Assembly: GCF_029784135.1 (NCBI RefSeq) | Contig: NC_073746.1 | Location: forward strand, 164,166,296 to 164,230,295 | From: Toxorhynchites rutilus septentrionalis | Lineage: Eukaryota; Arthropoda; Insecta; Diptera; Culicidae | DNA: 64,000 nucleotides | Direction of reading: 5' to 3' | Shown here: positions 3,075-52,481 of the stretch, piece by piece | How positions within the stretch are numbered: position 1 is the stretch's first letter | How the letters are laid out: every line of letters starts with the position of its first letter | The notes under the pieces: generated by a model | Told to the model about the DNA's origin: nothing | The model's input: only the letters and a program-made list of their open reading frames with translations | Database searches by the model: none | Program-made: the position numbers and the translations under genes

Positions 3075-3500
3075 ATACAGGGTGCGGCAGCATAACTTCC
3101 TTTTTTCAAAACTCAATAAAAACTATTGTGTGCATCGGAAAATATTTATTTATTTTTTATAATGTAGGTACATGTCTAAAGTTTTTATTTACATTGTTTT
3201 GAAGATCAAATCTGTTAGGTGACGTCCCCCATTCTCCATACATTCGTAGCAGACCGTGAGTACATCCGCAGCGCTATCAAAGTAGTTTATTATGAAAAGT
3301 CTGTTTCCCGAATCACGAAAAACTCTCCAACAGATTTTCAATGTAAGAAGCAAAACATTTTTCTTCTGTTGACATGTTTTGTAAGTTTTATCCCAGTGCG
3401 GCAGTGGCGGTGAGAGTAATATTTCACATAAAATGGAAACAACAAATTGTGTTTCCCGACATTCTCCAAAATGTTCACCTTTAGGGAATACCCCCACCAC
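3075..3500 (-). pseudogene. Possible Tc1/mariner 3' remnant
   Basis: A 103-codon minus-strand frame (3189-3500) ends in a C...CMENGGRHLTDLIFKT-like tail. This resembles the usual C-terminus of IS630/Tc1/mariner transposases, in which a Gly-Gly-x-His motif precedes the stop. About 100 bases beyond it, at 3076-3098, is a TA followed by CAGGGTGCGGCAGC, which could be a terminal inverted repeat. The upstream part of the frame is not recognisable and no catalytic residues can be placed. The call is weak. Confidence 0.25.
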
Positions 3501-16054: not shown

Positions 16055-16120
16055 ATCAGATAAGAGTGTATAAATCACGTTGGCCATGCTTCACTGTCAA
16101 TTTTTCGTAAATTTGGAAAA

Positions 16121-28758: not shown

Positions 28759-29349
28759 ATGTCGAATTTCGTACCAACGAGAGTGTTTTTGCGGGGAGTG
28801 TTACTTCATTACTTCAATATGAAGAAAAAAGCTGCGGAAAGTAATCGCATTTTGGTGGATGTTTATGGTGACCATGCTCCAACTGAGCGAACGTGTCAGA
28901 CGTGGTTTGCACGGTTTAAAAGTGGTAATTTTGAATTGGAAGACGAAGAACGTTCCAAACCGCCAAAAAAGTTTGGAGGCTTTACTAGATCAAGATCCGT
29001 CACAAGCGCAACAAGATACACTTGGAGTAGTTCAGCAAACCATATCTGATCGTTTAAAAACAATGGGAATGATCCGGAAGATAGGACATTGGGTTCCGTA
29101 TGAATTGAAGCCACGAGACGTCGAACGCCGTTTTTTCACGTGCGAAGAACTGCTCCAACGGCATAAAAGAAAGGGTTTTTTGCATCGAATCGTTACTGGC
29201 GATAAAAAGTGGGTCCATTACGACAATCCTAAACGTCGGGCAACGCATGGATACCCCGGCCATGCATCAACATCGACGGTCGCGCGGAATATTCACGGCC
29301 AGCAGGTTATGCTGTCTATTTGGTGGGACCAGCTGGGTGTGATGTACTA
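28759..29349 (+). pseudogene. Mariner DD34D transposase, frameshifted and interrupted
   Basis: The N-terminus (from MSNFVPTRVF) has the mariner helix-turn-helix with SNRILVDVYGDHAPTERTCQ and WFARFKSGNFELEDEE. A frameshift near 28965 moves the reading frame. The second part carries TGDKKWVHYDNPKR, which includes the first catalytic Asp, and then WWDQLGVMY. The nested ITmD37E element starts directly after this at a TA. Two defects, one frameshift and one insertion, plus the missing 3' end, make it inactive. The overall pattern is closest to mauritiana-subfamily mariners. Confidence 0.85.
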
Positions 29350-30651
29350 AGGACCGTATCGTTATTTATGGGTACGCCTTAGAGTCTCCGTCTGAAAAAG
29401 ACTATAGCTTGTTTTGACAGCTGTTTATTTTTCTCCTGTTGTTGACACAGTTAGCGTTCAGTTAGCATTGTTAAAAGATCGTTTTTTCCTAAAAGTGCAA
29501 TCATGAGAGGGCTAACAGAAGAAAAACGAAAATCCATTGTGACCAGATACTGCTCCGAAACAGGAATATCAATGAGAAAATTGGCGAAGGCGGAAGGAGT
29601 AAGCGTCCATGCGGTCCAAAACGCTATCAAGCGATTTGGTATGTATAATACATTGAAGGATCTACCCGGTCGCGGCAGAAAACCTGGGCCATCCAAGCCA
29701 AACTTGGATAAAAAGATTTGCAGGCAATTTGAAAGAAAAAAGGAATTATCGATACGGGATTGCGCAAAAAAGTGTGGAACATCAATCGGTATGGTTCAAC
29801 GTGCCAAAGAACGTAACTCACTGAAGGCATATAGAAAGCAAAAATGTCCCAAACGCAGCCAAATTCAGGCAAGTTCCGTGAAAACCCGTGCCCGTAAGCT
29901 TTACGATGGGATTTTAAGCAAACGCGAACTGTGCATCGTCATGGATGATGAAACCTACGTCAAACTGGACTACAAAACTCTTCCTGGGGCACAGTTTTAC
30001 ACTGTAAAGCAAGGAACAGATGTCCCGAACGCGGAGAAGTCAATTTTTTGCGAAAAATTCGGTAAGAAAGTGCTGGTTTGGCAAGCTGTTTGTCAATGTG
30101 GCATGAAATCATCTCCTTTCTTCACTCTCGGGAATATGAATGGTGAAATTTACCGGAAAGAATGTCTCCAAAAGCGTGTGTTACCGCTCATCCGAAAGCA
30201 CACTGGTCCGACACTATTTTGGCCTGATTTGGCATCATGCCACTATGCACGTTTGACCTTGGATTGGTATCGCGAGAATAATGTCGATTTTGTGGAAAAG
30301 GAGATGAATCATCCAAATTGTCCGCAAATAAGACCTATTGAAAAATTTTGGGCTTTGATGAAGGGACGACTGCGGAAGAAGGACAAGGCAGCCGATGACC
30401 TTGAGCAGCTCAAAAAGGATTGGATAAATGTGAGCAAACAAGTCGATGAGACGGTTGTCCAGAACCTAATGAGGGACATCAAGAAGCAGGTGCGATCATT
30501 GGCGCGAAAATCAGAATCTTGATTATTTTTTACTGTTACTCCTTTCTTTCATTCATAAGATACAATATTTTGATATCAGAACTGAAAAATAAATGCAATA
30601 TTTGAAATAAAGCTGTGTTTTGAGCGTACCCATAATTAACGATACGGTCCT
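29350..30651 (+). mobile_element. Second ITmD37E-like family, complete, nested in mariner
   Basis: Inverted repeats start AGGACCGTATCGTTA at both ends, and TA is duplicated (29348-29349, 30652-30653). At 1302 bp it carries one full-length transposase gene. The empty site reconstructed from the flanks is a continuous mariner codon series across a single TA. Its ends differ from those of the 15.8-kb family, so it is a separate family of the same superfamily. Confidence 0.92.
29503..30522 (+). CDS. DD37E transposase, 339 aa, intact (second family)
   Basis: Cut-and-paste transposase, expected to act on the AGGACCGTATCG inverted repeats that flank it. Residues 1-110 hold two helix-turn-helix units ('ISMRKLAKAEGVSVHAVQNA' and 'SIRDCAKKCGTSIGMVQRAK') separated by a GRGRKPGP AT-hook-like basic stretch at about residues 55-62. 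The catalytic residues are Asp149 (VMDDETYVK), Asp242 (FWPDLASCHY) and Glu280 (QIRPIEKFW), with 37 residues between the last two. The frame is complete with no breaks. It shares the catalytic motifs and length of the 338-aa enzyme at 16121 but differs at most other positions. AATAAA occurs shortly after the stop (about 30590). Confidence 0.95.
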   Translation: MRGLTEEKRKSIVTRYCSETGISMRKLAKAEGVSVHAVQNAIKRFGMYNTLKDLPGRGRKPGPSKPNLDKKICRQFERKKELSIRDCAKKCGTSIGMVQRAKERNSLKAYRKQKCPKRSQIQASSVKTRARKLYDGILSKRELCIVMDDETYVKLDYKTLPGAQFYTVKQGTDVPNAEKSIFCEKFGKKVLVWQAVCQCGMKSSPFFTLGNMNGEIYRKECLQKRVLPLIRKHTGPTLFWPDLASCHYARLTLDWYRENNVDFVEKEMNHPNCPQIRPIEKFWALMKGRLRKKDKAADDLEQLKKDWINVSKQVDETVVQNLMRDIKKQVRSLARKSES

Positions 30652-32664: not shown

Positions 32665-34167
32665 TATTTATTGAGTTGAGTTCTCAGTGGATATCTTAGA
32701 TGAAGAAAACGATAAGAAAGGATTTATTTCCTTCTCAATTTGATATTCTCCGCATCAGCTTACCATCGGGCAGTACGGCATACCTCTGTTCGGAGCAATT
32801 TGTTCGCTATCGACCGGATAACATTTTTGTATGTGAGGGATGCCAGATGATTTTTTTCAAATATCTCTTCAAATGTAATTATAATGAACAAAAATGAGCA
32901 AACCATATTTCTAAATCATGCTCGATAAATCACACAAACAATTGTTTTTACATACTTTGAAATGACCTCAGTATGTTTTCACAAAATTAAATGTCTTCAA
33001 AACTAAAACATGTCTTCACATCTGACATCTATATTGTGTGCTCAGAGAATGTAGGAAAAAAGAGCGCGGTCTGGAGAATTAATGCACGAATACTGGGAGA
33101 ACACCCTCACCGGAGAAACGGTTTCTTCTCTTCGCTGGTGGACATGAAGTGAATAGATTGATGGAATCTCTCATTCATACAAGCTGTTTCTCTGAGCTTT
33201 ATAGTCTCTGAGAGAAACAGCTTATGAGCATATTATACTTCTGCTGGGCCATTTAACTCCGTATGATTGGAAAATATAAAATTTGGGCACCTGACAAAAT
33301 AAAATTTGTAGCGCTTTTGTTATTCAGTATCTAAAATACAGAACGATTACAGATGACTGAGGGTTAACTAATCTACGTACTGACGTAGTTGTTACCTTAA
33401 TTTTTAAGAGCACGGTCAAGATAAATCCATTCTCACTTAGGAGATGCGTATTACACGCACAGATATACACATTTTTTCAGAAAATTTTACTGAATCAAAT
33501 GTTGCAACGCTGGTCATTCTTATAACAGGGTGGTTCACGTAACACAACTTATGGAGCATCTTAAATATTTCAAATAAGAACTTGTTTTATTTCATAGAGG
33601 TCGATATTCAGACCCAGTCGACCCCCAAAATCAATTTTCGTTTCTGTCGACCCCTGGGAAACCGAAATCGACCACTTTGAGAAACCCTGATTTAAATCCA
33701 TTGAGTGATTGAGAATGTAGTACATATTGTTTCTATTATTACGGAATATATACGAGAATATAGCAATTTCAGCTTAGAAATCAATTTCATGAGCATAAAA
33801 CACAACCTTTTTAAATTACTTTTAGTTCAAATTGCGTTCATACATTTACATCTCTAATCATTCAATTGGTGATCGCTAGAGTGATATACAGTTGTATATA
33901 TTATTACTACATTGTCTGCTACATGGCGGCACGTAACTCACAACTGCGCAATCATAAATATTATTGCTAACATCGGGAAATGACCACTCGTCACCCGTAA
34001 TCGATCATCCATCCCTCGTACCGCAATAAAACAAAACCAAACTCTTAAGTGGTGTGTCATCTCCGGTGCCCGCAGTGCCCGGCAACCAAAGTGGTTTCAA
34101 TTTCACCAAGACGCCCAGATTCGCACCGGCTGTCTATGAGCTGCTAAATCATATCTCAATCACTTAC
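32665..34167. other. Gene-free stretch, possible intron
   Basis: No coding signal. A 13-bp perfect inverted repeat at 33181-33193 and 33211-33223 could form a hairpin. 34168 is a splice donor of the minus-strand exon, so at least the right part is probably intron of that gene. Confidence 0.4.
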
Positions 34168-34332
34168 CACTGGTGAAATCATGGATGAAGTAACGATTCC
34201 GCTGGGATATATTAGTTCCTACGATATGCTTCGCCTTCAGGAAAAGGTTGTTATTCCCCAGATGGTCGGAGTGTCCATGTGTGCTCACTACATAACTGAT
34301 GTCATCGGGGTTCAGCCGATTCTCCTGCAATC
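34168..34332 (-). CDS. MBLAC1-like metallo-beta-lactamase-fold protein, one internal exon
   Basis: The 165-nt minus-strand exon has an acceptor with pyrimidine tract (...TTTATTGCCACAG) at 34333 and a donor CAGTG|GTAAGTG at 34168. It encodes 'LNPDDISYVVSTHGHSDHLG', then NNNLFLKAKHIVG and RYFIHDFTSG. THGHSDH is the HxHxDH metal-binding signature of the metallo-beta-lactamase fold, and the surrounding residues fit MBLAC1, a eukaryotic member implicated in histone mRNA processing. The exon carries two bases of a codon at its start and one at its end, so both introns are phase 1. The flanking exons (N-terminal beta strands; the PGHT and distal His motifs) are not found in the window. This suggests long, transposon-filled introns or a lone displaced exon. 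The frame is open and shows no damage. Confidence 0.75.
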
Positions 34333-35363
34333 CTGTGGCAATAAAAGAAAAGAACGGATACAAGAATGAGAATACTGTTATAGAAACGAGGCGGCTGAAA
34401 AAAAACCAACTTGATTATCTCGAGGATGCTTTCGGATTTTCCCCCATTATCGGAAATAACTCCAGTCCATGACGGAAATAAGAGATGAAAGTTAATTACT
34501 GAAGATGAAAGAAAACAACATCACCGATAAAGTGTGAGAGAAAGATAAACTCCTAAGCCGGTTTTCCCAGATGACGTCCAAAATAAAAGGACACACACGG
34601 AGGGAAAAATCTGTAGCACAAGAGACCATTTCAGCGTATATCGATTTTCGGCATATCGGATGTCCATTCAGGGCGTTTCACCCCACAGACGACAGTCAGT
34701 GCTAATGGGTTTTTCTTCGTTCGCATTTTCCATTCGCATACTCCACTCTGTTATTGGCGTATTTTCCCAAACAGCGAGAAAAACAACGGAGAAAATCTCT
34801 ACCAAAAAAGCTCGCAAAAACGATTTTATCCTCTCTCGCTCTCGTGTTTGAACCCGCGCACGAAGATGTTGGCGAAAAGGTACACACTCGCGCGCACAAA
34901 CACACCGACAGGGGTGAAAATCTCGACGCCGACCACACTACATTAAAGGAATAAGCAGGACAGCGACGATCCTCCCCGTGTGTGTGTGTGTGTGTGGGTG
35001 TGAGGGAACCCGATGAAAATCGATAAACACGCATTTTCACAACTCGTTCATCTGCTCCTCTAGAGGTCGCATCTGCTGGCCACTGCAAACAAAGAACGGC
35101 CACAGCAATAATAACAACACACAGAGATTCCGCCGAGCAATTCTCACTGGAATCGCGAATCATCATAATCATCGCTACCGCGCCGCCCACCCCATGGTCA
35201 TAAATCATTTTTGCAAGAAGGCTCCAATGGCTAAGCATTCAACTCGGGATAGGTTGACACCGTCGCTCAATTTACATAATTCAAAGGCTATGTTGCGGGT
35301 GAGCGGCTCCCAACTAGGTCCGTATTTCAAAAAGATGCTTCTGGTGCTCGTTTCCGAATGCTA
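34333..35363. other. Probable intron/non-coding DNA
   Basis: No gene. Overlapping frames at 34702-35238 contain low-complexity runs, including a (TG)n tract near 34978-34998 and the matching Thr-His repeat in translation, and carry no domain. The right end is the 9-bp target site of the large Mutator element. Confidence 0.4.
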
Positions 35364-35424
35364 GTTATTATTATGTGGGTGAAGATACCAATAAAAAGAT
35401 ACCAATAACTTTTAATTACAACTG

Positions 35425-37750
35425 ACATTTTTTGTAGCCGATGATAAGACAGTTTTATCATTTAAATTAGAAGCACACCATCCTACGAGAATATTCTGAA
35501 ATGGTGGAGTGTTGGAATTGACCTATCTGGTCATGGGAACCATTTGAAATTTCAAGAAATTCACGAAAATGGACAAGTCCTAAGGCTAATATTTTTCGGA
35601 GGCGATAGAATGTCAATTTTATCATTTGAATTAGAAGCATACTATCCTCCGAGAATATTCTGAGATGGTGGAATGTTGGAATTGACCCATCTGGTCATGG
35701 GAACCATTTGAAATTTCAAGAAATTTACGATAATGGACAAGTCCTAAAGCTAATATTTTTTGGAGGCGATAGAATGTCGATTTTATCATTTGAATTAGAA
35801 GCATACCATCCTCCGAGAATATTCTGAGATGATGGAGTGTTGGAATTGACCCATCTGGTCATGGGAACCATTTGAAATTTCAAGAAATTTACGATAATGG
35901 ACAAGTCCTAAGGCTAATATTTTTTGGAGGCGATAGAATGTCGATTTTATCATTTGAATTAGAAGCATACCATCCTACGAGAATATTCTGAGATGGTGGA
36001 GTGTTGGAATTGACCCATCTGGTCATGGGAACCATTTGAAATTTCAAGAAATTTACGATAATGGACAAGTCCTAAGGTTAATATTTTTTGGAGGCGATAG
36101 AATGTCGATTTTATCATTTGAATTAGAAGCATACCATCCTACGAGAATATTCTGAGATGGTGGAGTGTTGGAATTGACCCATCTGGTCATGGGAACCATT
36201 TTAAATTTCAAGAAATTTACGACAATGGACAAGTCCTAAGGCTAATATTTTTTGGAGGCGATAGAATGTCGATTTTATCATTTGAATTAGAAGCATACCA
36301 TCCTACGAGAATATTCTGAGATGGTGGAGTGTTGGAATTGACCCATCTGGTCATGGGAACCATTTTAAATTTCAAGAAATTTACGATAATGGACAAGTCC
36401 TAAGGCTAATATTTTTCGGAGGCGATAGAATGTCAATTTTATCATTTGAATTAGAAGCATACTATCCTCTGAGAATATTCTGAGATGGTGGAATGTTGGA
36501 ATTGACCCATCTGGTCATGGGAACCATTTTAAATTTCAAGAAATTTACGATAATGGACAAGTCCTAAGGCTAATATTTTTTGGAAGCGATAGAATGTCGA
36601 TTTTATCATTTGAATTAGAAGCATACCATCCTACGAGAATATTCTGAGATGGTGGAGTGTTGGAATTGACCCATCTGGTCATGGGAATAATTTGAAATTT
36701 CAAGAAATTCACGAAAATGGACAAGTCCTAAGGCTAATATTTTTTGGAGGCGATAGAATGTCGATTTTATCATTTGAATTAGAAGCATACCATCCTACGA
36801 GAATATTCTGAGATGGTGGAGTGTTGGAATTGACCCATCTGGTCATGGGAACCATTTTAAATTTCAAGAAATTTACGATAATGGACAAGTCCTAAGGCTA
36901 ATATTTTTCGGAGGCGATAGAATGTCAATTTTATCATTTGAATTAGAAGCATACTATCCTCCGAGAATATTTTGAGATGGTGGAGTGTTGGAATTGACCC
37001 ATCTGGTCATGGGAACCATTTGAAATTTCAAGAAATTTACGATAATGGACAAGTCCTAAGGCTAATATTTTTTGGAGGCGATAGAATGTCGATTTTATCA
37101 TTTGAATTAGAAGCATACCATCCTACGAGAATATTCTGAGATGGTGGAGTGTTGGAATTGACCCATCTGGTCATGGGAACCATTTTAAATTTCAAGAAAT
37201 TTACGACAATGAACAAGTCCTAAGGCTAATATTTTTTGGAGGCGATAGAATTTCGATTTTATCATTTGAATTAGAAGCATACCATCCTACGAGAATATTC
37301 TGAGATGGTGGAGTGATGGAATTGACCCATCTGGTCATGGGAACCATTTTAAATTTCAAGAAATTTACGATAATGGACAAGTCCTAAGGCTAATATTTTT
37401 CGGAGGCGATAGAATGTCAATTTTATCATTTGAATTAGAAGCATACTATCCTCCGAGAATATTCTGAGATGGTGGAATGTTGGAATTGACCCATCTGGTC
37501 ATGGGAACCATTTTAAATTTCAAGAAATTTACGATAATGGACAAGTCCTAAGGCTAATATTTTTCGGAGGCGATAGAATGTCAATTTTATCATTTGAATT
37601 AGAAGCATACCATCCTATGAGAATATTTTGAGATGGTGGAGTGTTGGAATTGACTCATCTGGTCATGGGAACCATTTGAAATTTCAAGAAATTCACAAAA
37701 ATGGACAAGTCCTAAGGCTGATATTTTTTGGAGGCGATGGAATGACATTT
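35425..37750 (+). repeat. Left arm: 14 copies of a 164-bp unit
   Basis: GTTGGAATTGAC recurs at 35511, 35675, 35839, 36003 and so on every 164 bp to 37643. Units differ at few positions but fall into variants; for example GTCAATTTT...TACTATCCTC versus GTCGATTTT...TACCATCCTAC. Each unit has GGTCATGGGAACC and ATGGACAAGTCCTAAGG. There is no coding potential. The outermost unit resembles the outermost unit of the right arm (GCACACCATCC and ACCTATCTGG variants). Confidence 0.95.
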
Positions 37751-38925
37751 TTTTCATTTTAATTAGACACACGAGTCTTTCCATTAGTCATCAAACCGGC
37801 ATCTACTGCTAAAATAATCGTTTTTGAATTTGAATGGCGGCTTCAAAAATTGATCGTTCATAACAAGAAAGTCAGCTTAAGTCGACCAATTAATTTGCTT
37901 CGATGGCTAATGAATCGCGGCTTAAATGTAAATCAGCTTACATCTCTGGACCAAATATTACATCGGTCAATGAAAAAATATTCAAAAAGAAAATAATTTT
38001 TTGGGTCGAATAAACTAAGTTTCTCTAAAATTTAGCCGATCAATATTATAGTCCAGTTCTAGATTTTCTTAGTCGAGCCGGATAGGCGCCGATTCCAAAA
38101 CGTGATTAACCCATTCCAAAATATTGTTTCATGTTTTATTGTAAAATCTCATCATATTCTCACAAAAAAGTGCTTAAAAAATTAAGAATATTTGAGAAAA
38201 TATATGAGGAAACGAATTTTTGATCGGTTGAGCAACCTACAACATGGGATAGTCTAGTATTTTCGGAAATGCTAGTCGATATTAATTTTCAGTTCGCGAA
38301 ATCGATGCATCGAGAACACTTCTTAACCATGACTCGAGACTCCCGGCTTAAATTTACGAAAAAAAAGTTGAAATCGACTATTATCGAGTGATATTAATCA
38401 TTCGACTTTGTTCCGATTTTCTGAATAAGAAACCTCCTCAGATCAGTCTCGTTCAGACGACTTGAAGCTGAAGTATTTTTATTATAAGTAAACGTATGCT
38501 TTCAAGTGATATAAATCTTACAATAGGGTTTTCTTTGCGACTCCTTGGTAGTCAGAGGTAATACCTAACCCACTGAGTAATGGAATTCAAGTTCTCCTCT
38601 CAGATTGAGCCTAGAGAAAAATATCTTGTTCTGCAAATTGTTATTAATTTAAATCTTATTTCGCCATACTTTTTCCCGTGAGTATTCACTTTAAATGAAT
38701 AGAATACGTCCTACAATCAGTAGATCAATTAGGCGTAATTATATAAAAAAAAACTGTATTGATTTTTTCCTGGATCTAACCGCGTTGTCATCACTTCTGG
38801 TAATGATCGATTGTTCATTTTCATTCCTTTTTCTCCACTTCTGTCATACATATACATCTACTACTGAATCCACTGAACGCGAATTTAGCCTTCGTAACTT
38901 CCGTGAGCAACCACTTGCAACTTAT
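37751..38925. other. Non-coding interior of the Mutator element
   Basis: AT-rich with no coding signal. It ends in the TTAA target of the nested piggyBac element. Confidence 0.4.
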
Positions 38926-38929
38926 TTAA

Positions 38930-40689
38930 CACTAGATTTACCAGACCAGTCATTTTGACTGGTCGTGCAATTTCAATTTAAAATTCCTACGACATATTAC
39001 ATTTGCTTTCCGAAATGATGTTATGACTTTTGTAGCTATAAGTAGAAAAAACATTTTATAAACTTAATGTTACTTAATATTTATTACTAACAAATATATT
39101 TTTTTGTTATTGACATTTAAACCAGTACCAGTCAAACTGACTGGTGCATGTTTCTATGAAGAAATGTATGAGAGCGTTTTAATTTCAACATATTTTGACA
39201 GCAATTGTCAGCCCCTGAAAATGTTCTGCATATTTAGAAAATGCAACCAGCATACCTCTGGAATGTTCAGATGTGGAAAGTGAATTATACGACAGCGGCG
39301 ATGATTTGTTAGATAGAAAAATTGATTCTCAAGGAAGTGATGATAACAGTGCTATTATCGAGAGTAGTGATGAGGAAATTCCTGATGATGACAATATAGA
39401 TGAGCCAAGCGACAGTGGTTGCGTAAAAATTCCAATCAAGCGTACCAAATCAGCAAACTGAAATTGCTTTAGACGGAACTATTTGAACGAGAATTGAAGA
39501 AGGAGGTGTTGCTGGTAGATTACTAGTTCATAGTAATTTCAAAGATGTACACGGTCCAACAGCACATGCTGAAAGAAATATTATGAACGGGAATCTAAGT
39601 AGTGCGTTCCAATTACTGATTGATAACCATATTTTGGAACATATACGAATTTGTACAGAGTTAGAAGCCTCTCGAGTTTTGGAAAAAAGTGGACAATTAC
39701 ACAAGAAAAATTGAAGGCATCTCTTGCAATATTGTGCGCGCGTGGGGCGTACGAAGGAAATAGCTTCAAACAGGGGATGAACTTATATTACCGGGGATAA
39801 GCAACTTTTTCCATCGGAGGCCAGATGCAGATTTACTCAGTATTTTCCAAACAAACCCCATAAATTTAGCATAAAATTCTAATTGGCGTCTGATGTAGAG
39901 ACGAAATATGTGATAAATGGCTTTCCTTATTTAGGAAAAAGCGAGACTCGAAATGCATCAATCCCCCTATGCAAATTTGTCGTAATGAAATTTCTTGAAC
40001 CGTATACCATGAAGGAGCGTAAAACTGATATTTTTTACAAGTATTCCTTTGGCGTTAAAATTAAGATCTCAAAATACTTCGTTGCTTGGAACGATACGCG
40101 CTTCTATTGGCAACCAGACATATTTTGGCGTCGATGTCACTGATCGAATGGAAATCAGGTTCCAGAAGGTGACCACTTCAACTGTTTTTCAATAATTTAG
40201 TTTCAGCCGGAAGAAATAGCTGGATATTGAACAAAACATAACAGGAGAAAATATCTCACGAGAAGACTTTCTGTTTCAATTAGCAAAAGAACTTGCTTCA
40301 GAATATCAGACTTCAAGGCAAATACCACACGAAGCTGATATACCAACTACAAATGGCACTGTTTCTGTACGCAAATGGTGTCAAATAGAATATTTTAATA
40401 ACAATAAGACTACAAATATTTGCAATAAATGCAAAAAAAGTCTATGTAGAAAGTGTATACACTGCAAAATCTATTGTGAGCAACAAACTGTAAACAATTA
40501 AGTGTTTTGTTATTTGACAATGTCTATTAGTCCATTTATCTATCACAATTAATATTGTTCAACTTATTTTCGCCATTTGATAAGTAATAGTACAGACTGG
40601 AACCACAATATTCATTTTTTCTTATACACCAGTCATTTTGACTGGTGCTGGTAGAAATAGGTATATATAAATAGCTGGTAAATCTAGTG
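38930..40689 (+). mobile_element. piggyBac-like element nested in the Mutator element
   Basis: TTAA flanks both ends (38926-38929, 40690-40693). The terminal inverted repeats are CACTAGATTTACCAG. Just inside each end is the palindrome ACCAGTCATTTTGACTGGT (38945-38963 and 40628-40646). The interior carries a decayed piggyBac transposase. At 1.76 kb it is close to full length for a small piggyBac, but no intact frame remains. Confidence 0.9.
39240..40502 (+). pseudogene. piggyBac-like transposase remnant
   Basis: Pieces in different frames follow the family order. An acidic N-terminus (39273-39460; Glu/Asp/Ser-rich) comes first. A DDE-domain piece follows (39883-40143), with a TKYVINGFPYLGK motif like the segment before the last catalytic Asp region. 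A C-terminal cysteine-rich tail (40419-40502) has Cys-x2-Cys, Cys-x2-Cys-x2-Cys and a final Cys, as in the zinc-binding end domain. Frame breaks and stops separate them, and the middle with the first two Asp residues is not legible. Inactive. Confidence 0.75.
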
Positions 40690-41046
40690 TTAACACGGGG
40701 TCGTTTCCATACTAGGCGGTACAGGATAGTCCCGATCTTCTGAACAGACTTGAATGAACTAAAAACATCCGTAGCCGATCGAGTCAACTAGAAAAATAAG
40801 CTAGCGGCGGTCGCCGTTGGCCCCATTTTTCTTGTTGAAAAAAACCGGCGTCGACATTTTCAAATATGGCGTCGACCGCCGAAATTTTTGACGACAGAAG
40901 TGTCTGTCTCCTGGTCTGCTATACATTTTCTGTAGGCGTTAAGATCAACACTGAAAAATATTTCGACATAAAAAAGCGCAAAATAAAAAAAATACTAAGT
41001 CAGCGCTATTATCTTAAGTCACCAAAGTGAAGTTGTGTACTCTAGC

Positions 41047-41325
41047 TTCTTCTTCTTCTTGGATGGCACTACCGTTCCAGTGAAACTTTTGCCTTCTCAA
41101 CGCAGCATTACTTGCGTCATTTTTATTAGTAGTGCTTGGTTGAGATTTCTATGCCGAATAACACGCCTTGAATGTACTCTGGAGGGGCAAGCTCTAGAAT
41201 ACGCGTGACCACAGTGCAAGCCGGAAGAATTTTCTTTCACGAAAAATCCCCCGACCAGAACGGGAATCGAACCCGAACCCCCGGCATGATAGTGTGGGAC
41301 GCTAACCACTCGGCCACGGGAGCAC
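41047..41325 (-). mobile_element. tRNA-derived SINE nested in the Mutator element
   Basis: In reverse it starts with CGTGGCCGAGTGGTTAGCG (A-box) and GGTTCGGGTTCGATTCCCG (B-box), then a body ending near GGTAGTGCCATCCAAG with AAG repeats. GTACTCTAGC is duplicated (41037-41046, 41326-41335). The same family is at 52204-52468. It is not a functional tRNA gene: the head is followed by a 200-bp body and a target duplication. Confidence 0.88.
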
Positions 41326-42349
41326 GTACTCTAGCGCCGAATCGTAATGAAAATATTCGGTGGCGGAGTTGCGCCGTGGCGAATTTTCGTTCGGCAATGA
41401 AACGATTGCGATGAGTTGTGATGATATTGAAAGTGGAATACAGCTGGAATCCGACGAATGCATGGAAATTGAGGTAGGTTCAGTTTGTATTAATCTATGA
41501 CTTCAGTAAAAATTTTATTACGACAAAATTAATTCATAATAAAAATTGCGCTTTTTTCTGTGTGGCATTCATACCCCTGAGTTCACTTTTTAAAAACATG
41601 AATAGAAACTATTGCTACATGTTCTTTAAATGTATTATTAAAAGAGCTTCTGAATGTTTCCACCAGAACCCAATGATAAATGGGTCTGAAAAGTTGAACG
41701 AATTGGTATGAAAATATGGAGAAATTTGCGTTAGTGATACTAAAGCCTATGATCATAACGCGAAATCCAACAGTCACATAATTTCCGTTGTTTCCTATTA
41801 TAAGAAGAGATGTCGACCAGGAATATCATTTCATAATCAAAAGGGATGAAACACGGTACGTGGAATGGATTCAACGGATAAAAATTGAAAATCATCCGGC
41901 TAAGCAGTTTAAATTTCAGCATGTCGATATTCTACTAAGTAATTATCATCAATTTTCACGTATTATTTTTTTCAGAAACAAAACGTTTAACTAAACTATT
42001 AATTTGTATGGCTCGAACCTTGGCGATGGTAATTGAGGACAGGTTAAAAACTCTCAAGCCATTATTGTTCACCTGTTCAACACAAACGAGCAGCAATTCA
42101 TTTAATCCTCGACGACCAAACGATTTTCTCCGGCAGCGAAATTGAAAATATCGACAGATCAAGAAATCATGTCTATATATTTTTTATCTGCTTCTATAGA
42201 AATTTCCCACCCTAATTAAAATAAACATTAGAGAAAATCAATTTGAGTATTTTATGCGTCTGAATAAACCACAAAAACGTAAACATCGATTAAATTTTCT
42301 TCTACGCTTCATCTGATTCGCTACTCAAAAGTGTCGTTTGACTGACCGA

Positions 42350-42495
42350 TGAAAAAACACTTTCGTACGAAAACGAGGATAGGGCAATTCGTTCGAACGA
42401 ACGATGTTCGAATGTTCGAACGGATAGATTTCTTTCGTACGAAACCAAGGATACGAATGAGGCATTCTTTCGAACGTTTTGTGTTCGTTCGAAAA
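42350..42495. promoter_or_regulatory. Cluster of TTCGAACGAA / TTCGTACGAA palindromes
   Basis: Within 145 bp the motifs TTTCGTACGAAA (two exact copies, about 42362 and 42434) and GTTCGAAC or GTTCGAACGAAC (several, about 42391-42420 and 42470-42492) recur, some overlapping. The cluster lies about 650 bp upstream of the transposase start codon and outside the arm arrays. It could be a protein-binding region for transposase or a host factor (inference), or simply an expanded palindromic repeat. Confidence 0.4.
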
Positions 42496-42636
42496 CAAGA
42501 ATAAGGGTGTTTATTTTTTTGGTTCGTTAAGTTAGTGTATAGAATAATATTAGGTGATTAATAGCAGTAATAGACGATAATATCTACTGTTTGCGCCACG
42601 CGGAGCGAGCGCATACGTGTTGCGACATGACCTGTC

Positions 42637-42957
42637 ATTCCATTGCATCACCCAGAGACGTGCGAAAGTGAGATGAAAGCAGTATCAACACAACAAACGA
42701 ATATCACCCGAGCTATCCGAGCGAAGCCGACAGGACAAATACCCCACCAGAGCAGAACATGATCCATTCCACGACGATCCATTTCGTTTGGAACACTAAT
42801 TTTCCGTACACCAGCCGAAACAATTTCTATCCTTTTCATTCAATCGCATCACCGAGAGACGTGCGAAAGTGAGATGAAAGCAGTATCAACACAACAAACT
42901 AATATCACCCGAGCTAACCGAGCGAAGCCGACAGGACAAACACCCCACCAATTTCAG
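42637..42957 (+). repeat. Duplicated promoter-proximal segment (~110-bp repeat)
   Basis: The stretch from CATTGCATCACC to CCCCACCA at 42637-42750 is repeated at 42840-42953 with few changes (shared AGACGTGCGAAAGTGAGATG and GCGAAGCCGACAGGACAAA). After it, copy 2 continues with TTTCAGGGAGTATAAAAGTA and then GCAGAGCAG...ATGATCCAT. Copy 1 goes straight into AGAGCAG...ATGATCCAT. The TATA-bearing ~22 bp is thus absent from copy 1. Confidence 0.75.
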
Positions 42958-42961
42958 GGAG

Positions 42962-42968
42962 TATAAAA
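42962..42968 (+). promoter_or_regulatory. TATA box of the Mutator-element gene
   Basis: TATAAAA lies 171 bp before the first ATG at 43139. Initiation would be expected about 25-30 bp downstream, near 42990-43000. A possible leader intron (GTGTATTT near 43016 to CCTACAG at 43090) is suggested only by splice-like ends. Confidence 0.55.
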
Positions 42969-43138
42969 GTAGCAGAGCAGCATATGATCCATCTTTATAA
43001 GTTTTTATTCACCACGTGTATTTAGAAACCATTAGAGAAAGTTATAGTGAAAATTTGGACTTTGAAAACTAGTGTCGTTTTTTCCTACAGTAAATTTAGT
43101 CAGACCCTTTCCAACCGGAGTACTATAAGGATTGAGAA

Positions 43139-46100
43139 ATGTGTACTGTGAAGATGGCATCCTCTTATAAAATTAATTTAGAGATGTGTTTAGAAGCGGT
43201 TAACAGTTTAATTTTAACCAAGTGCCTAGAATATGATTTCAAGTTAAATTTTAAGAACATGCAAGTAATTTTGGAGCGTATGGGATTAGATAAAACGAAC
43301 TATCCTAGTATGAAGGTAATCAAAAGCCTTCTAATGAAACATCGAAAATCCGTAAAACGGTTTGCTCCTGAGATTACTTTGCAGAATTGTTGGGATGCAG
43401 CGAATGATTTGATCGCTAGAGAAGAGTTGGATGAGCTATTCGAATTGAATTCTAAGAATCTGAAAGAAATTCTTGTAGAAATGGGATTAAACGAAAAATG
43501 CGCACCTAACTTAAAAAAAGTTAGGAATAACTTCGCTTGTAATCCAACATATAAGAAGTATCGTGCAGAACGAAAGGTGAGAACCCTTATAATTGTTATA
43601 AGCTTCCTGAAATTAATAAAACTATTTTGAAATTTTCAATGTGAAATCATTTCCGCAGAATATTGAACATTCAATTGCCGCTGAAAGTCATAACGTAAGT
43701 GTAAAATATCAAATTGCTTTGAAATAGTCACGCCATACAGTAACTTCAAATTTTTATAGATCGATAATTTCAAAGAATGTTCTTTTGAGAATGAAAGTGC
43801 CTGCTTGCCACAAGACTGCGTTGGAGTTCATGAAGTAAGATGACATTTCTATTTATTAATTCATGTATTAATAGTTGTTATTTAGCAGCTTTTATTAAAT
43901 AAAACAGATCATATGTCCGAAACAAACTCATCTCCTTCACGTGTCGAAACAAGAACATTATCATTTGTATCATTTGACACAAACGATTTCGAGGAATTGG
44001 CCGACTCTCAAAGTACTACTTTTGACGGCGTTGATAATACGGGAAAAGATAACGAAGTAAGATGACATTTCCAATTAATTATTCATGTATTAATATGTAT
44101 TATTCTTCAGCAACCTCCATTCGGATTTTTATTGAAAGGAACAGATTTATCGCGTGTCGAAATAAAATCATTATCCGTCGAGTTTCCTGCAAAAGTATGT
44201 AAGAAAGGAATGGAACTTAATGCTCCAGAAATTGAATGTCGCATTTTTGAAACATCAGTAAGTCAAATGCAAGAGAGATCAACGAACGACATGCAAGACT
44301 CGATTGTTTCATTTGATACCAATGATCTTGAAGGATCGACCAAATCACAAGATACTACTTATAGCAGTGATGTAGATGTAACTGAACTTGTGTTCAATAC
44401 AACGGACTTTGAAAACCTACGAAAAGAGATAAAAGAAAAAGGCAACAGTAACAGGATCAAATACAATGTCAAGGTTGCGGAATGTGGGGCAACTGCCACA
44501 AAAAGACTTTATAGTGGTGCTTCAATTTACGAGTGTTCTTTTTACATCAACAAGAAGAACATTGAAATGTGTAAACATTATGATCAACATAATATAATGC
44601 AAAGCAAAACCAAGGTTGGCGATGCTAAATATAAGCAACAAAAGCATAGAAGGCCTTTTATAGTGGCCTTAGAAGATTTGTTAAAAATCAAATATGAAGA
44701 ATTCAATATCTATTGTATAATCAATATAAATTCTCATAATTGCAACAAATCTGGCTGGCTATTTTATGGTGTCTGCGCTCACAAGACCTGCAGATCTTAT
44801 CGTTTCAAAATTGTTTCTGTTACGGATGGTGATAACATATATAAAGTCGATGTCTATGTTAATGTCGCTATGACCCTGATACACGGGGAAAACCTGAAAG
44901 CGGCATATTGCAAAGGAGTAAAAAGAAACATAAATATGAAAAAACTGCAGCTCCAAAAACCACTTGAATTACGAACTAAGTTGATCAACGAAAAGAAAAA
45001 AAGGGAACCATTCGAGAAGGTAGACATTGTCAGCAAAAATGTATTGAAAAAAATTAGCAGTGAAGCTAAATCGAAGCTTAACAGGGATATTGATGATTTT
45101 CAAGATTTGATAAAAATGTCTGAGGATAACGGATCTTATATCAAAAATGTGTTTAGAAAGCCCTTTGGTGTAATTTGTTTTAATACAAAAATGTTCAAAG
45201 AGCTGAGAAAAAACAAGACTTACAGTCCTATTTTCTACATGGATGGTACTGGATCGGTTGTACGATATTCAAAAGCTGAGAAGCGTGTTCAAATATATGT
45301 TTTGGTCGCATACAATTACCGGTCAAATTTTAGTGTACCCGTAACAACCTTTGTGACTGAAAGCCAAAAAACAGTAGACTTCCACAATTGGTTGAATATA
45401 TTTCGTGCTTCGTACGAGTCAGGCAGCTCTATGAATAAATTGAATAAAATAGCGAGAATTGTTAGTGTTGATTGGAGCTGGTCACTGATTGGTGGATTGA
45501 TACGGGCTCTTAATAATCAACACCATACACTACCAGAGTATATCCGAGATTGTTATAAAGTTTGCATAAGAGAACTCAATCTCAATTTCACTATCATTCA
45601 TTTATGCTACAGTCATTTCATGAATGTAGTTTCTAAGGACTTGAAATCTGCTCCAATCAACATAAAACATAAGTTCATGGACTGTATGCGATTGGCTGTA
45701 CGTGCTACAAACTTAGTGGACTTAATCGATCTGTTTATCATTATGACATGCATTTTTGGATCTGCAAATGAGAACCGAATGCTTGAGACATCACTAAAAG
45801 AACTAGATGCAAAAATTAATGATAGAACAAGCTTCGATTCAGAAAGCGCTGGTAAATTTGATTATACTGGCATCGGTGAACCAGAAATTCTAAAAAAAGA
45901 TGAGGACAAAATCTTCTTGGGATCGCCTTTTTATGCGTTGTTAAAAGAAACATTTGAAACAACATTAAAACAAATAGATGATCTCAGCCAAGGATCACAG
46001 AACCCACTGTATTTCAAAGGATTCTTGGAAGATGTCGCCTTGAAAAAATACATGCCTGTGGTTTGTTTGTGGTCAAATATAATAGTATCTCAAATTGACT

Positions 46101-47440
46101 CGAATCCGGATACTATTTCAAACGCAAGGGTTGAAAGCTTCTTCCGAACATTGAAACACAATGTTATGAAAGGTCAGCTCTACGAAAGAATAACACATTT
46201 TCTTCGAAAACTACAATCGTATATTGAATCTCTGTTCCACTTTTCCGACTTTGACATTGAAGATATATACGCTACTGATAAAGGAATAAGTAATGCTAAA
46301 AAACGTCAAGATGATAGAATCGCAGAATATGACAGATTTGTCGGAAACGTAGAAGACATAGAGGACGAATGGCATAGTCCATACTTTCAAAAAGATGCTT
46401 CAACCCACTTGTTCAAGAAGAAAAAGAAGCAGGAAACTAACAGCTTAAACACACAACTTGAACAATCAACACAGAAGCACCCAGATTCAAAGGAAAACAG
46501 TGATAACAACAGAAAAAGATCATTAGAAGAAGATTTAGAAACTACCTGTAATCTGTCCTCTATTCATCAATTCATTGACAAAGGATTTGAATTTCCAGTT
46601 ACCACCAAATGGTATTTCGGTGAGTTTCCTTCAGAATATGAGAGCATAGGAGTAAGTAGTATGATTGTAAGCTCAGAAATGCTTCAAACGCTCGATGCAC
46701 ATACATATATGGATGGAGAAACCTTAGATGCGATAATTGCAGTGGCCATAAAAGAATGTGAGGTCGAAAGCGTAAAATTGGTATCAACTTACATGTCGAG
46801 AAACTTGTTTGATACAACTCAACTAAAAGAAGTATTGGATAGGAAACGAGATTATGTTTTACCAGTTCTAACCAATACATCGGGAGTATGGGTGGTTCCT
46901 TTGAATGTTAGAGCTGGGCAAGCACCCACCAAGCAAGTTGGAAGAGGGAACCATTGGGTTCTCTTCATTGCTGATTTTATGAATAGAGAAACTTTTTATT
47001 TAGATCCTCTCGAAACAGCATCCCCATATTTGAAGGACGTACAAGAAGAATTTTTGAAGGCAGTAAGCTCTATTCGGAGACTTAAAAATCAACCATTTGA
47101 TTCAACCAATTGGCAAAGCGGCTCGAAAAATATTGCGCACGACAAGCAAAACGACGACTACAACTGTGGTGTATATGTAGCTAAATATGCACAAAACTTT
47201 CTTTTGAAGAAACCGTTGACCGGGCTAGGAAACATGGATTCTGAGAGGAAACAAATCAAAATAAAACTCCTAAATACAGCAGTAATAAAAATTTGTTTAT
47301 ACTGCAGCAGCTTGAAATCACTAATTTTGTCATGTCAATCATGTGGACGGAGGTGTTGCAGTAGATGCGCCCCAAATATGGTGCTAAAAATTCCATCTAC
47401 AAAACAATGTGAAATATGTTCGAAAATTAAAATGATATAA
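43139..47440 (+). CDS. MULE-like transposase with Ulp1/SENP-type protease domain, 5 exons, 1348 codons
   Basis: Spliced by eye: exons 43139-43576, 43659-43694, 43760-43834, 43889-44056 and 44111-47440. All introns are 54-82 nt, GT-AG and phase 0, so the frame stays open throughout. The ATG at 43154 has a better context than the first. Domains: two ~60-residue tandem repeats (about 15-78 and 82-142); acidic Ser/Thr-rich linker; Cys/His-containing region (exon 5 start); MULE-like DDE core with Asp617 (YMDGTGS), Asp693 (SVDWSWS), Cys738/His741 (CYSHF) and Glu914 (ARVESFF); Lys-rich linker; cysteine protease with His1187 (NHW), Asp1204 (YLDPL), Gln1252 and Cys1258 (NCGVYV); C-terminal Cys cluster (about 1308-1345). 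Expected role: nuclear transposase whose protease domain may cleave SUMO-like modifiers (inference). No frame damage. The exact DDE assignment is by motif only. Confidence 0.85.
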
Positions 47441-47455
47441 TTTTTAAGTCTCATC

Positions 47456-47461
47456 AATAAA
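47456..47461 (+). terminator. Polyadenylation signal of the Mutator-element gene
   Basis: AATAAA starts 16 bases after the stop codon at 47440, followed by a T-rich stretch. A very short 3' untranslated region fits a compact transposon gene. Confidence 0.7.
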
Positions 47462-47569
47462 TTTTTATATTACCTTTTAACTTGAAGTATTTTTATTTGT
47501 CCAGTTTGAGTCCTTTCAGAAACGAGATAGAATCCTGTCGTCTAAGTCAAAAATGAAAAAATTGTCATT

Positions 47570-50035
47570 CCATCGGCTACAAAAAATAGTTGCCATAAAC
47601 CTCAACCATTCGCGTGGATTTTTTTTTAAATTTTAAATGGTTCCTATGATCAGATAGGTCAATTCCAACACTCCACCATCTCAAAATATTTTCGGAGGAT
47701 AGTATGCTTCTAATTCAAATGATAAAATTGACATTCTATCGCCTCCAAAAAATATTAGCCTTAGGACTTGTCCATTATCGTAAATTTCTTGAAATTTTAA
47801 ATGGTTCCCATGACCAGATGGGTCAATTCCAACATTCCACCATCTCAGAATATTCTCGTAGGATGGTATGCTTCTAATTCAAATGATAAAATCGACATTC
47901 TATCGCCTCCAAAAAATATTAGCCTTAGGACTTGTCCATTATCGTAAATTTCTTGAAATTTAAAATGGTTCCCATGATCAGATGGGTCAATTCCAACACT
48001 CCACCATCTCAGAATATTCTCGGAGGATAGTATGCTTCTAATTCAAATGATAAAATTGACATTCTATCGCCTCCGAAAAATATTAGCCTTAGGACTTGTC
48101 CATTATCGTAAATTTCTTGAAATTTAAAATGGTTCCCATGATCAGATGGGTCAATTCCAACACTTCACCATCTCAGAATATTCTCGTAGGATGGTATGCT
48201 TCTAATTCAAATGATAAAATCGACATTCTATCGCCTCCAAAAAATATTAGCCTTAGGACTTGTCCATTATCGTAAATTTCTTGAAATTTAAAATGGTTCC
48301 CATGATCAGATGGGTCAATTCCAACACTCCACCATCTCAGAATATTCTCGTAGGATGGTATGCTTCTAATTCAAATGATAAAATCGACATTCTATCGCCT
48401 CCAAAAAATATTAGCCTTAGGACTTGTCCATTATCGTAAATTTCTTGAAATTTAAAATGGTTCCCATGACCAGATGGGTCAATTCCAACACTCCATCATC
48501 TCAGAATATTCTCGGAGGATGGTATGCTTCTAATTCAAATGATAAAATCGACATTCTATCGCCTCCAAAAAATATTAGCTTTAGGACTTGTCCATTATCG
48601 TAAATTTCTTGAAATTTAAAATGGTTCCCATGATCAGATGGGTCAATTCCAACACTCCACCATCTCAGAATATTCTCGTAGGATGGTATGCTTCTAATTC
48701 AAATGATAAAATCGACATTCTATCGCCTCCAAAAAATATTAGCCTTAGGACTTGTCCATTATCGTAAATTTCTTGAAATTTAAAATGGTTCCCATGACCA
48801 GATGGGTCAATTCCAACACTCCATCATCTCAGAATATTCTCGGAGGATGGTATGCTTCTAATTCAAATATAAAATCGACATTCTATCGCCTCCAAAAAAT
48901 ATTAGCCTTAGGACTTGTCCATTATCGTAAATTTCTTGAAATTTCAAATGGTTCCCATGACCAGATGGGTCAATTCCAACACTCCACCATCTCAAAATAT
49001 TCTCGGAGGATAGTATGCTTCTAATTCAAATGATAAAATTGACATTCTATCGCCTCCGAAAAATATTAGCCTTAGGACTTGTCCATTATCGTAAATTTCT
49101 TGAAATTTAAAATGGTTCCCATGACCAGATGGGTCAATTCCAACACTCCACCATCTCAGAATATTCTCGTAGGATGGTATGCTTCTAATTCAAATGATAA
49201 AATCGACATTCTATCGCCTCCAAAAAATATTAGCCTTAGGACTTGTCCATTATCGTAAATTTCTTGAAATTTAAAATGGTTCCCATGACCAGATGGGTCA
49301 ATTCCAACACTCCATCATCTCAGAATATTCTCGGAGGATGGTATGCTTCTAATTCAAATGATAAAATCGACATTCTATCGCCTCCAAAAAATATTAGCTT
49401 TAGGACTTGTCCATTATCGTAAATTTCTTGAAATTTCAAATGGTTCCCATGACCAGATGGGTCAATTCCAACATTCCACCATCTCAGAATATTCTCGGAG
49501 GATGGTATGCTTCTAATTCAAATGATAAAATTGACATTCTATCGCCTCCGAAAAATATTAGCCTTAGGACTTGTCCATTATCGTAAATTTCTTGAAATTT
49601 AAAATGGTTCCCATGACCAGATGGGTCAATTCCAACATTCCACCATCTCAGAATATTCTCGGAGGATGGTATGCTTCTAATTCAAATGATAAAATTGACA
49701 TTCTATCGCCTCCGAAAAATATTAGCCTTAGGACTTGTCCATTATCGTAAATTTCTTGAAATTTAAAATGGTTCCCATGACCAGATGGGTCAATTCCAAC
49801 ATTCCACCATCTCAGAATATTCTCGGAGGATAGTATGCTTCTAATTCAAATGATAAAATTGACATTCTATCGCCTCCGAAAAATATTAGCCTTAGGACTT
49901 GTCCATTTTCGTGAATTTCTTGAAATTTCAAATGGTTCCCATGACCAGATAGGTCAATTCCAACACTCCACCATCTCAGAATATTCTCGTAGGATGGTGT
50001 GCTTCTAATTTAAATGATAAAACTGTCTTATCATC
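47570..50035 (-). repeat. Right arm: 15 copies of the 164-bp unit, inverted
   Basis: AATTCCAAC recurs at 47661, 47825, 47989 and so on every 164 bp to 49956, with one 1-bp deletion near 48869. These are the left-arm units in reverse. Variants with TAGTATGC...AAAATTGACATT cluster toward the outer end and at 48030 and 49013, mirroring the left arm. The innermost unit is the most diverged. Confidence 0.95.
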
Positions 50036-50429
50036 GGCTACAAAAAATGTCAGTTGTAATTAAAAGTTATTGGTATCTTTTTATTGGTATCTTCACCCAC
50101 ATGTTATTATTCATGGCAAGAAGCATTCAAAGGGTGCTTGAAAAAAAATGGAAAAAGACCGGAGCGGATGCATTCCAGCTGAATGAACACGCGGCCTGAG
50201 ATAAATGGTGTCACTGTAGGCAACGCTTGAGATATTTCGGAAACTGTCAACAATTTGAGTCGACATTGAAAATCGTTTCGACCAAGGTCGAAATCAGTTC
50301 TACAATGGATAGATGAACATTTTTTTGTCCTGGTGGAAAACAACACCATTCCCATTGATAATTTCTGGCCGCTTCTGGTCAATCACCTGCTTCAAACGGT
50401 CAAGCTGCTCACAGTAGAGAACCGAGTTG

Positions 50430-51057
50430 GGGGTCTAGCCATAGTTGAGCAGCTCATAGTGGATGATTCCCTTCCAATCCCACCAAACACACAGCAAAAC
50501 CTTCCCGGCCGTCAATCCGGGCTTGGCGATGATTTGGGTCGGCTCACCGCGCTCCGACCACGGCTTTTTTCGCTTTAGGTTGTCGTACGTGGTCCACTTT
50601 TCATCACCAGTCACCATCTTCTTCAAAAATGGATCGAGTTCGTTCCGTTTCAGCAGTGCTTCGCAGGCGTTGATTCGGTCTAAAAGATTTTTTTGCGTCA
50701 ACTCGGCACCCATACATCCAGCTTTTTTTGGAATCCAATCTTCTGCAAATGGTTCCAAACGGTTTTATGGTCTATACCCAATTCCTGGCCAATCGAGCGA
50801 GTGCTCACATGTCGGTCTACTACGATGATTTCAACGATTTTATCGGTTTCCACGACGATTGGCCTATCAGTACGGGGTGTATCTTCGACAGCCACCACAC
50901 CAGAACGAAATCGATCAAACCAACGCTGTGCTGTGCGAATCGTTACAGTATCGGGTCCATAAATTACACGAATTTTTTCGACCGCCTTCGTTGCAGTTGT
51001 ACCTCGCAGGTAGTAAAAACGTAAAATATGGCGAATTTCTTGCTTGGTGGACTCCAT
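50430..51057 (-). pseudogene. Mariner (mellifera-like) transposase, frameshifted and truncated
   Basis: From MESTKQEIRHILRFYYLRG, the minus-strand frame has the mariner helix-turn-helix (TAQRWFDRFRSG, DRHVSTRSIGQELGIDHKTV) to DVWVPS. After a frameshift near 50710 it continues with ELTQKNLLDR, then VTGDEKWTTYDN with the first catalytic Asp, and WWDWKGIIHYELL. A stop follows at 50435. Degenerate downstream sequence to about 50290 may hold the second Asp segment (FHQD). The C-terminal third is not legible. Motifs match mellifera-subfamily mariners. It sits just outside the big Mutator element. Confidence 0.85.
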
Positions 51058-51115
51058 CTTTGACGCGCTATAACTTGAGACTGAAAAGGACAATCACAAC
51101 ACTGTCAAAACGACA

Positions 51116-52190: not shown

Positions 52191-52203
52191 CATTACGATC
52201 CCT

Positions 52204-52468
52204 TCTTGAATGGCGTTAACGTTCTCTGTGGAACTTTTGCCGTCTCAACGAATGCATTAACTAGCGTCATTTATTAATACTTAGTTGAGATTTCTTAAGC
52301 CAAATAACACGCCTTCAATGTATTCCGAGGGGCAAGCTCTAGAATACGCGTGACCACAGTGCAAGTCGAAGGAAATTTCTCTGACGAAAAATCCTCCGGC
52401 CAGAACGGGAATCTAACCCGAACACCCGGCATGATAATGTGAGACGCTAACCACTCGGCCACGGGTGC
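52204..52468 (-). mobile_element. tRNA-derived SINE, 13-bp duplication
   Basis: Same family and orientation as 41047-41325, with a tRNA-like head CGTGGCCGAGTGGTTAGCG on the right and the same body. ACATTACGATCCC flanks both sides (52191-52203, 52469-52481). It has small deletions relative to the other copy and a mutated B-box (GGGTTAGATTCCCG), so it is unlikely to be transcribed well. Confidence 0.88.
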
Positions 52469-52481
52469 ACATTACGATCCC

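Follow-up and report, generated by a model that had tools for sequence, protein, structure and literature searches.

The Foldback (FB/NOF) elements of Drosophila consist of long inverted arms of tandem repeats placed around an optional gene, and the lengths of these arms are variable. FB-NOF is said, reportedly in the title of a 2013 paper by Badal, to be non-autonomous. The closest described group to the element presented here is Rehavkus, which we take to be the class also called MULE-NOF (MULE, Mutator-like element). A 2019 survey describes Rehavkus as an outgroup of the MULEs that occurs in arthropods and annelids and has 9-bp duplications, one open reading frame (ORF), a PHD finger and a minisatellite, and states that known Rehavkus elements are very few, with descriptions confined to Repbase (PMC6446971). 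A survey of arthropod MULEs, in which 322 MULEs were reported, also has Rehavkus as outgroup (PMC13359780). One member, Rehavkus-1_TC of the beetle Tribolium castaneum, is 9.5 kb long and carries inverted termini of a tandem 164-bp unit, TCsat23, mostly in five and eight monomers (PMC10218199). Here we describe an element of 14,730 bp (35373-50102) in a 64,000-nt stretch of DNA of the mosquito Toxorhynchites rutilus septentrionalis (the window; coordinates are positions within it unless named otherwise). We consider it very likely that this is a DNA transposon of the Rehavkus kind that is intact, moves by cut and paste, was mobile very recently and is probably autonomous. It represents a new family of this already known kind, in an unusually complete and recent state.

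The features of the element are listed in Table 1. The sequence of its target site duplication, GTTATTATT, occurs on the plus strand of the window only at the two flanking sites, and its reverse complement occurs once, at 35107. The two arms are 97.4% identical over 2395 columns when aligned in inverted orientation, and Tandem Repeats Finder detected a 164-bp unit in both of them, with 14.1 copies in one arm and 14.7 in the other. Long inverted arms of tandem repeats that vary between copies define the Foldback type, and such arms are found here; we use the term as a label of architecture, not of lineage. A first-pass annotation of the window had proposed a complete, Foldback-type Mutator transposon, possibly an autonomous and recently active one, marked by a perfect 9-bp duplication, inverted ends, two arms of about 2.4 kb made of 164-bp units and one uninterrupted spliceable gene. 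The duplication, ends, arms and gene were all confirmed. That the element is complete and of Foldback type, that it was active recently and that it is probably autonomous is supported by numerous copies whose 9-bp duplications differ and by the two intact targets reported below.

To count the copies, the assembly (902.6 Mb) was searched with the first 52 bp of the unique terminal domain, allowing up to 3 mismatches. The results showed 79 matches, 64 exact and 15 with 1-3 mismatches, versus none for the reversed pattern used as a control. Fifty-six of the 64 exact ends form 28 convergent pairs, which are 6,955-27,650 bp long; the other eight comprise four on small contigs, one inner end of a nested copy (E19) and three without a partner. 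Perfect 9-bp duplications were found at all 20 loci examined at both outermost ends, and all 20 are different. All ten copies that were fetched whole have one. For ten further loci, the duplication was perfect at first in seven, E19 was mismatched at 9 of 9 positions, and the right ends of E11 and E15 lay outside the fetched pieces. The duplication of E11 was perfect once its right end had been fetched, and that of E19 was perfect when the outer left end was used; E15, which is partnerless in the end search, was left out of the 20 loci counted. A deletion copy at C3:6.46 also has a perfect 9-bp duplication. Chance is excluded because all 20 duplications are distinct and the 79 terminal matches stand against none in the control.

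Two of the copies, E3 and E8, sit in repeated DNA, so that uninterrupted copies of their targets can be seen. In the joined-flank search, 40 of 828 candidates were scored, and results were obtained for E3, E8 and the window site out of 10 sites prepared. The joined flanks of E3 were intact at at least 36 places with 100% identity over 140 bp, and at 3 more places with 99% identity or over 139 bp. For E8, at least one intact target was detected (99%). Distinct duplications at other copies and empty sites, both of which the first-pass annotation had named as signs of activity, are therefore present in the assembly. E19 (C2:90014700-90045400) is a composite of 27.6 kb with one pair of outer duplications, in which the outer left arm and the core up to window-equivalent 42729/42730 are fused precisely to the left end of a complete-looking inner copy. 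Insertion of one copy into another, followed by a deletion, is the best reading of this structure. That E19 might be a copy without a duplication was rejected, as the mismatch concerns its nearer left end, and the outer one, which lies 15 kb beyond, gives a match. The composite carries another insert, of about 7 kb, at window-equivalent 40711-40715.

Ten cores were aligned, with only the first core taken for E10. They share all parts, including two passenger elements described below, and differ by 21 substitutions, of which 20 are singletons, and three indels. The core of E8 has a 201-bp deletion within the direct repeats, that of E7 has a 6-bp deletion in exon 1, and E3 carries a 1.24-kb insertion about 20 bp past the stop (window-equivalent 47461-47465), with 4 bp repeated at its edges. 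For each copy this amounts to about 2 changes in 9.9 kb, and the cores are more than 99.8% identical. At a Drosophila-like mutation rate of about 3e-9 per site per generation, the spread would be of the order of 70,000 generations old, and less if sequencing errors are included among the changes. The window copy has a single private change, S26L. Coding changes were 12 nonsynonymous or nonsense versus 3 synonymous, at 3238 and 809 sites respectively; the ratio, from small numbers, is about 1, which is what one would expect if the copies have been complemented in trans since the burst.

The search of the genome for exon 5, in which 41 of 89 candidates were scored, gave at least 29 full-length matches, 26 of them free of stops and 3 with one stop each, and 12 further partial matches; 3 of the 29 are on small contigs and two are within the gapped locus E10. 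Copies matching the protein at 62% and 91% were considered as old, diverged autonomous relatives and rejected: the long stretches of their DNA that were compared have identities of 99.0% and 99.7%, so that frame shifts account for the lower protein matches. The C2:71.6 copy adjoins a gap of 500 N, and the fetched 8 kb of C2:18.86 contain no gap; the frame shifts of the C2:71.6 copy are more likely an assembly error than old decay. Taken together, the many distinct duplications, the near-identical cores and the open main exons indicate that the family was amplified recently and is probably autonomous.

The gene model has five exons with GT/AG borders and encodes 1349 amino acids (1348 in the first-pass annotation) without internal stops. 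The beginnings of its third and fourth introns (43832-43873 and 44054-44095) are 90% identical over 42 bp, and part of the 5' half of the gene therefore probably arose by internal duplication. LOC129761447, a protein of T. rutilus septentrionalis, matches exon-5 residues 110-1124 with 100% identity over 98% of this stretch; it is annotated as 'uncharacterized' and represents a cluster with 11 members. Among the matches listed, the protein searches gave only the host's own protein and two distant relatives, P0003 (35% identity over 82% of the query) and P0004 (47% over 58%). A third protein search returned nothing beyond the query itself, and none of 405 matches was confirmed when viral contigs were searched for relatives by pattern.

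The gene would supply the transposase. Residues D, D, CxxH, W and E are common to P0001, P0003 and P0004 in the alignment, which is a reading of motifs and not of a fold. By their order, D393, D469, the CxxH, W669 and E690 of P0001 may be read as corresponding to D214, D283, H307, W401 and E419, which transposition of Muta1 requires (PMC5225508). The exon-5 protein also gave a sub-threshold Pfam match to rve_3/rve_2 (E about 0.08). At its C-terminus, a Peptidase_C48 match reached 26.3 bits against a cut-off of 20.7 (33.9 bits in P0003), the SENP1 profile matched at 4.5e-8, and H963, D980, Q1028 and C1034 align in order with the catalytic His, Asp, Gln and Cys of SENP1; the best Foldseek matches of a weak model of this domain were SENP2 and SENP1 (2.6e-9, TM-score 0.51 by query length). 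The putative transposase ends in a Ulp1/SENP (C48) domain, a candidate peptidase that the first-pass annotation had left unmentioned. Nine conserved cysteines follow within the last 48 residues of the protein and could bind zinc; Pfam PHD gave no match there, and the cluster is conserved in the only 2 proteins that reach so far.

Turnover is much faster in the arms than in the core. The ten copies have 12-19 units in the left arm and 3-17 in the right, and eight further right arms have 6-15; arm length varies by whole units, one unit being 163 bp in some right arms. When the 225 full units were coded by sequence, 46 types were obtained, 10 of which occur in left as well as right arms, and the strings of units were distinct in 10/10 left and 10/10 right arms. 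At a marker position within the outer 130 bp, all ten left ends have A, and of the right ends six have G and four have A. In E8 the same five units open both arms, and an identical run is found in the right arm of E8 and the left arm of E9. This common run points to exchange between arm types; exchange within one copy is not thereby established. The arms may change by unequal exchange, by template switching during gap repair or by annealing of the inverted arms.

Two foreign elements in the non-coding part of the element had been seen in the first-pass annotation as having landed there. Their presence was confirmed; a landing in the window copy was not, as both are carried by all 10 cores. Fresh insertion into the window copy is ruled out on this ground, and both passengers are old elements, older than the spread of the family and carried along with it. 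The larger is bounded by TTAA at 38926 and TTAA at 40693 and lies in the non-coding half; we presume it to be a piggyBac relative partly from protein features and partly from its ends, and Pfam gave no match for this remnant. The other, a short interspersed element (SINE)-like piece, is 86% identical to 52202-52470 of the window. Its tRNA-likeness is presumed from a resemblance, and ARAGORN called no tRNA in the piece.

Several described systems share part of these characteristics. FB-NOF is called non-autonomous, whereas the main exon of the Toxorhynchites element is open in many copies. Rehavkus-1_TC has a terminal unit of the same length, 164 bp, as compared by description and not by sequence, and the equal length in beetle and mosquito could be coincidence; its copies are about 95% identical versus more than 99.8% for the Toxorhynchites cores, and the Toxorhynchites element is longer (14.7 kb vs 9.5 kb) and has more units. 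Tm1 of Meloidogyne is similar in its foldback-type composite ends and 9-bp duplications but differs in having repeats of about 14-bp motifs and a Phantom-like transposase of 496 amino acids (PMC3169594). Muta1 of Aedes aegypti, a Phantom-type MULE, has 8-9-bp duplications and the same D, D, CxxH, W and E needed for activity; however, its transposase has 504 amino acids and a FLYWCH finger, and Ulp1 is unmentioned in the available parts of PMC5225508. Transposases that carry Ulp1 at the C-terminus, in some cases together with a PHD finger, are known from Ginger1 and certain Mutator elements in hydra, lancelet and plants, but Ginger1 has an integrase-like core and those Mutator elements are other families (PMC2836005). 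Tetris of Drosophila virilis has foldback arms of tandem units of about 220 bp, in numbers that differ from copy to copy, but an encoding element was not found (PMC4079207). The word Ulp1 has no occurrence in PMC6446971, and neither Ulp1 nor Toxorhynchites occurs in the main text of PMC13359780. The parts available of these two papers, PMC10218199 and PMC4438587 contain no report of a Ulp1 domain in Rehavkus; we make no claim of priority, as Repbase reports are outside this scope.

The element is best filed under Rehavkus, an outgroup of Mutator, and not under canonical Mutator. Two Rehavkus traits are present, namely the 9-bp duplication at 20/20 loci and terminal tandem repeats in the form of the 164-bp units. 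We think it unlikely that it is a canonical Mutator/Phantom element with repeat-built arms. The 9-bp duplications and long arms would agree with such an origin, as would the DDE residues with CxxH and W between the second D and E, seen as a motif reading in 3/3 proteins; moreover, Tm1 of root-knot nematodes joins a Phantom-like transposase to foldback ends (PMC3169594), and some aphid Phantom elements also have a minisatellite (PMC6446971). Against it, PF10551, the Pfam MULE family, had no match in the exon-5 protein at E up to 1 and, of 14 matches genome-wide, none at element copies; hhalign detected no similarity between a two-sequence profile and one resident MULE protein; the exon-1 and exon-5 frames gave no Pfam match to MULE, FLYWCH or SWIM, the latter two being zinc fingers that are not universal among the groups surveyed (PMC6446971); and the terminal tandem repeats are as described for Rehavkus. 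The name Mutator in the first-pass annotation was thus too specific, and Rehavkus is the closest group.

Under another explanation the element is non-autonomous, the gene being a captured passenger and the ends being moved by a transposase encoded elsewhere. The terminal matches with 1-3 mismatches (ATGTCGGTG, ATGTCGATG and similar) include short convergent pairs, and four short elements were fetched, of 2167 and 722 bp with perfect 9-bp duplications and of 2167 and 496 bp without. They are probably non-autonomous foldback relatives, their arms being about 90% identical to those of the 14.7-kb element. As relatives too short for the gene have inserted, two of the four with perfect duplications, mobilisation in trans does happen, and no selection during the current burst is seen in the small number of coding substitutions. 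Such absence is expected between very young copies under either reading, however, and a mere passenger fits poorly with the number of open exon-5 matches (26 of at least 29) and with the catalytic motif retained in relatives at 35% and 47% identity; we therefore hold a captured gene to be decidedly improbable. It is scarcely credible that the copies and their arm differences are assembly artefacts, such as duplicated haplotigs or mis-joined contigs. There are indeed gaps of 500 N inside three long tandem-like copies, E10 (C1:16.2), C2:71.6 and C3:306.7, and element parts on six small contigs (C108, C274, C289, C294, C300 and C303), but the 20 loci have different duplications, 18 left flanks compared pairwise were never alike at more than 35 of 60 bases, and 60 of the 64 exact ends lie on three chromosome-size contigs.

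Several observations weigh against an intact, recent and autonomous Rehavkus-type transposon with the properties given above. The target site of the window copy is unique, and an uninterrupted paralogue of it was not found in the assembly. The existence of short relatives with arms about 90% identical means that another transposase could have moved the family; it also suggests that the lineage was probably resident before the current burst began, and a simple fresh invasion is thereby less convincing. The median edit distance, counted in units, is 12.5 between the two arms of one copy and 13.0 between arms of different copies, so that the arms of one copy are no more alike than others and general fold-back homogenisation within copies is not seen. 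The arm differences could partly be assembly errors in tandem repeats, given the three gapped copies. As PF10551 went undetected and hhalign gave no result, the nuclease fold rests on motifs, the sub-threshold rve_3/rve_2 match and the literature; the AlphaFold model of the 1124-residue exon-5 protein has a predicted local distance difference test (pLDDT) score of 30.7, and the model of the Ulp1 domain is weak (pLDDT 53.1).

Table 1. Features of the Toxorhynchites element, in positions of the window
Feature	Position	Strand	Basis
Left 9-bp target site duplication, GTTATTATT	35364-35372	+	letter match
Left arm, 2395 bp: 54-bp unique terminus, then tandem 164-bp units	35373-37767	+	
Left unique terminal domain, with 14-bp direct repeat AAGATACCAATAAA at 35382-35408	35373-35426	+	
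Core between the arms	37768-47708		
Decayed piggyBac-like element: TTAA at both ends, inverted ends of 15 bp, broken reading frames	38926-40693	+	in 10/10 cores compared
SINE-like piece with presumed tRNA-like stretch, non-coding half	~41055-41325	.	in 10/10 cores compared
Two direct 115-bp repeats, starts 201 bp apart, upstream of the gene	42635-42950	+	
Exon 1, from ATG	43139-43576	+	gene model
Exon 2	43659-43694	+	gene model
Exon 3	43760-43834	+	gene model
Exon 4	43886-44056	+	gene model
Exon 5, main coding exon	44111-47440	+	gene model, open reading frame
Candidate catalytic core: D393, D469, C514-x-x-H517, W669, E690 (P0001 numbering)	45242-46135	+	invariant in 3/3 aligned proteins
Ulp1/SENP (Peptidase_C48) domain, predicted: H963, D980, Q1028, C1034	46946-47272	+	Pfam, SENP1 profile, Foldseek
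Putative zinc finger at the C-terminus: nine clustered cysteines (CxxC, CxxC, CCxxC, CxxC)	47294-47419	+	invariant in 2/2 proteins reaching that far
AATAAA polyadenylation signal past the stop	47456-47461	+	gene model
Right arm, inverted copy of the left arm	47709-50102	-	
Right unique terminal domain, identical to the left one	50049-50102	-	
Right 9-bp target site duplication, GTTATTATT	50103-50111	+	letter match

Other transposon-derived sequences were observed in the window. A mariner-like transposase fragment (50698-51093, HTH_48 match) lies beside the element, a mariner-type Transposase_1 frame is at 28823-29350, and three Tc1-type transposase frames are at 16064-17137, 25238-26269 and 61356-62180, all with HTH_23 and the first two with DDE_3. 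A Lactamase_B frame (metallo-beta-lactamase superfamily) at 34160-34414 might be an exon belonging to a host gene close to the insertion.

In the mechanism that we propose, the spliced gene would give a transposase recognising the 54-bp termini, which would cut the element out and insert it with a 9-bp stagger. The 164-bp arms would lengthen, shorten and swap units by recombination or template switching between units, faster than the core mutates, and the Ulp1-like domain may be an active deSUMOylase or a SUMO-binding module aiding the transposase. Judged from its sequence, the element may be active at present. One could go further and suppose that the arms are rebuilt at or near every transposition by recombination of 164-bp units, that the unit length has been kept between beetle and mosquito as a functional spacing (for example one transposase or nucleosome unit), and that a deSUMOylase borne by the transposase counters SUMO-dependent germ-line silencing by PIWI-interacting RNAs (piRNAs); we regard this combination as speculative and rather unlikely. 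SUMO on Panx has been linked, in a protocol paper, to piRNA-guided transcriptional silencing in Drosophila (PMC13195609), and this link gives the anti-silencing idea for the Ulp1 domain a concrete test. With the many open, near-identical copies it can be tested whether a foldback element is moved by a Rehavkus transposase on its own, and with this family the fast change of foldback arms beside a constant core and the use of a Ulp1 domain to a transposase become testable as well.

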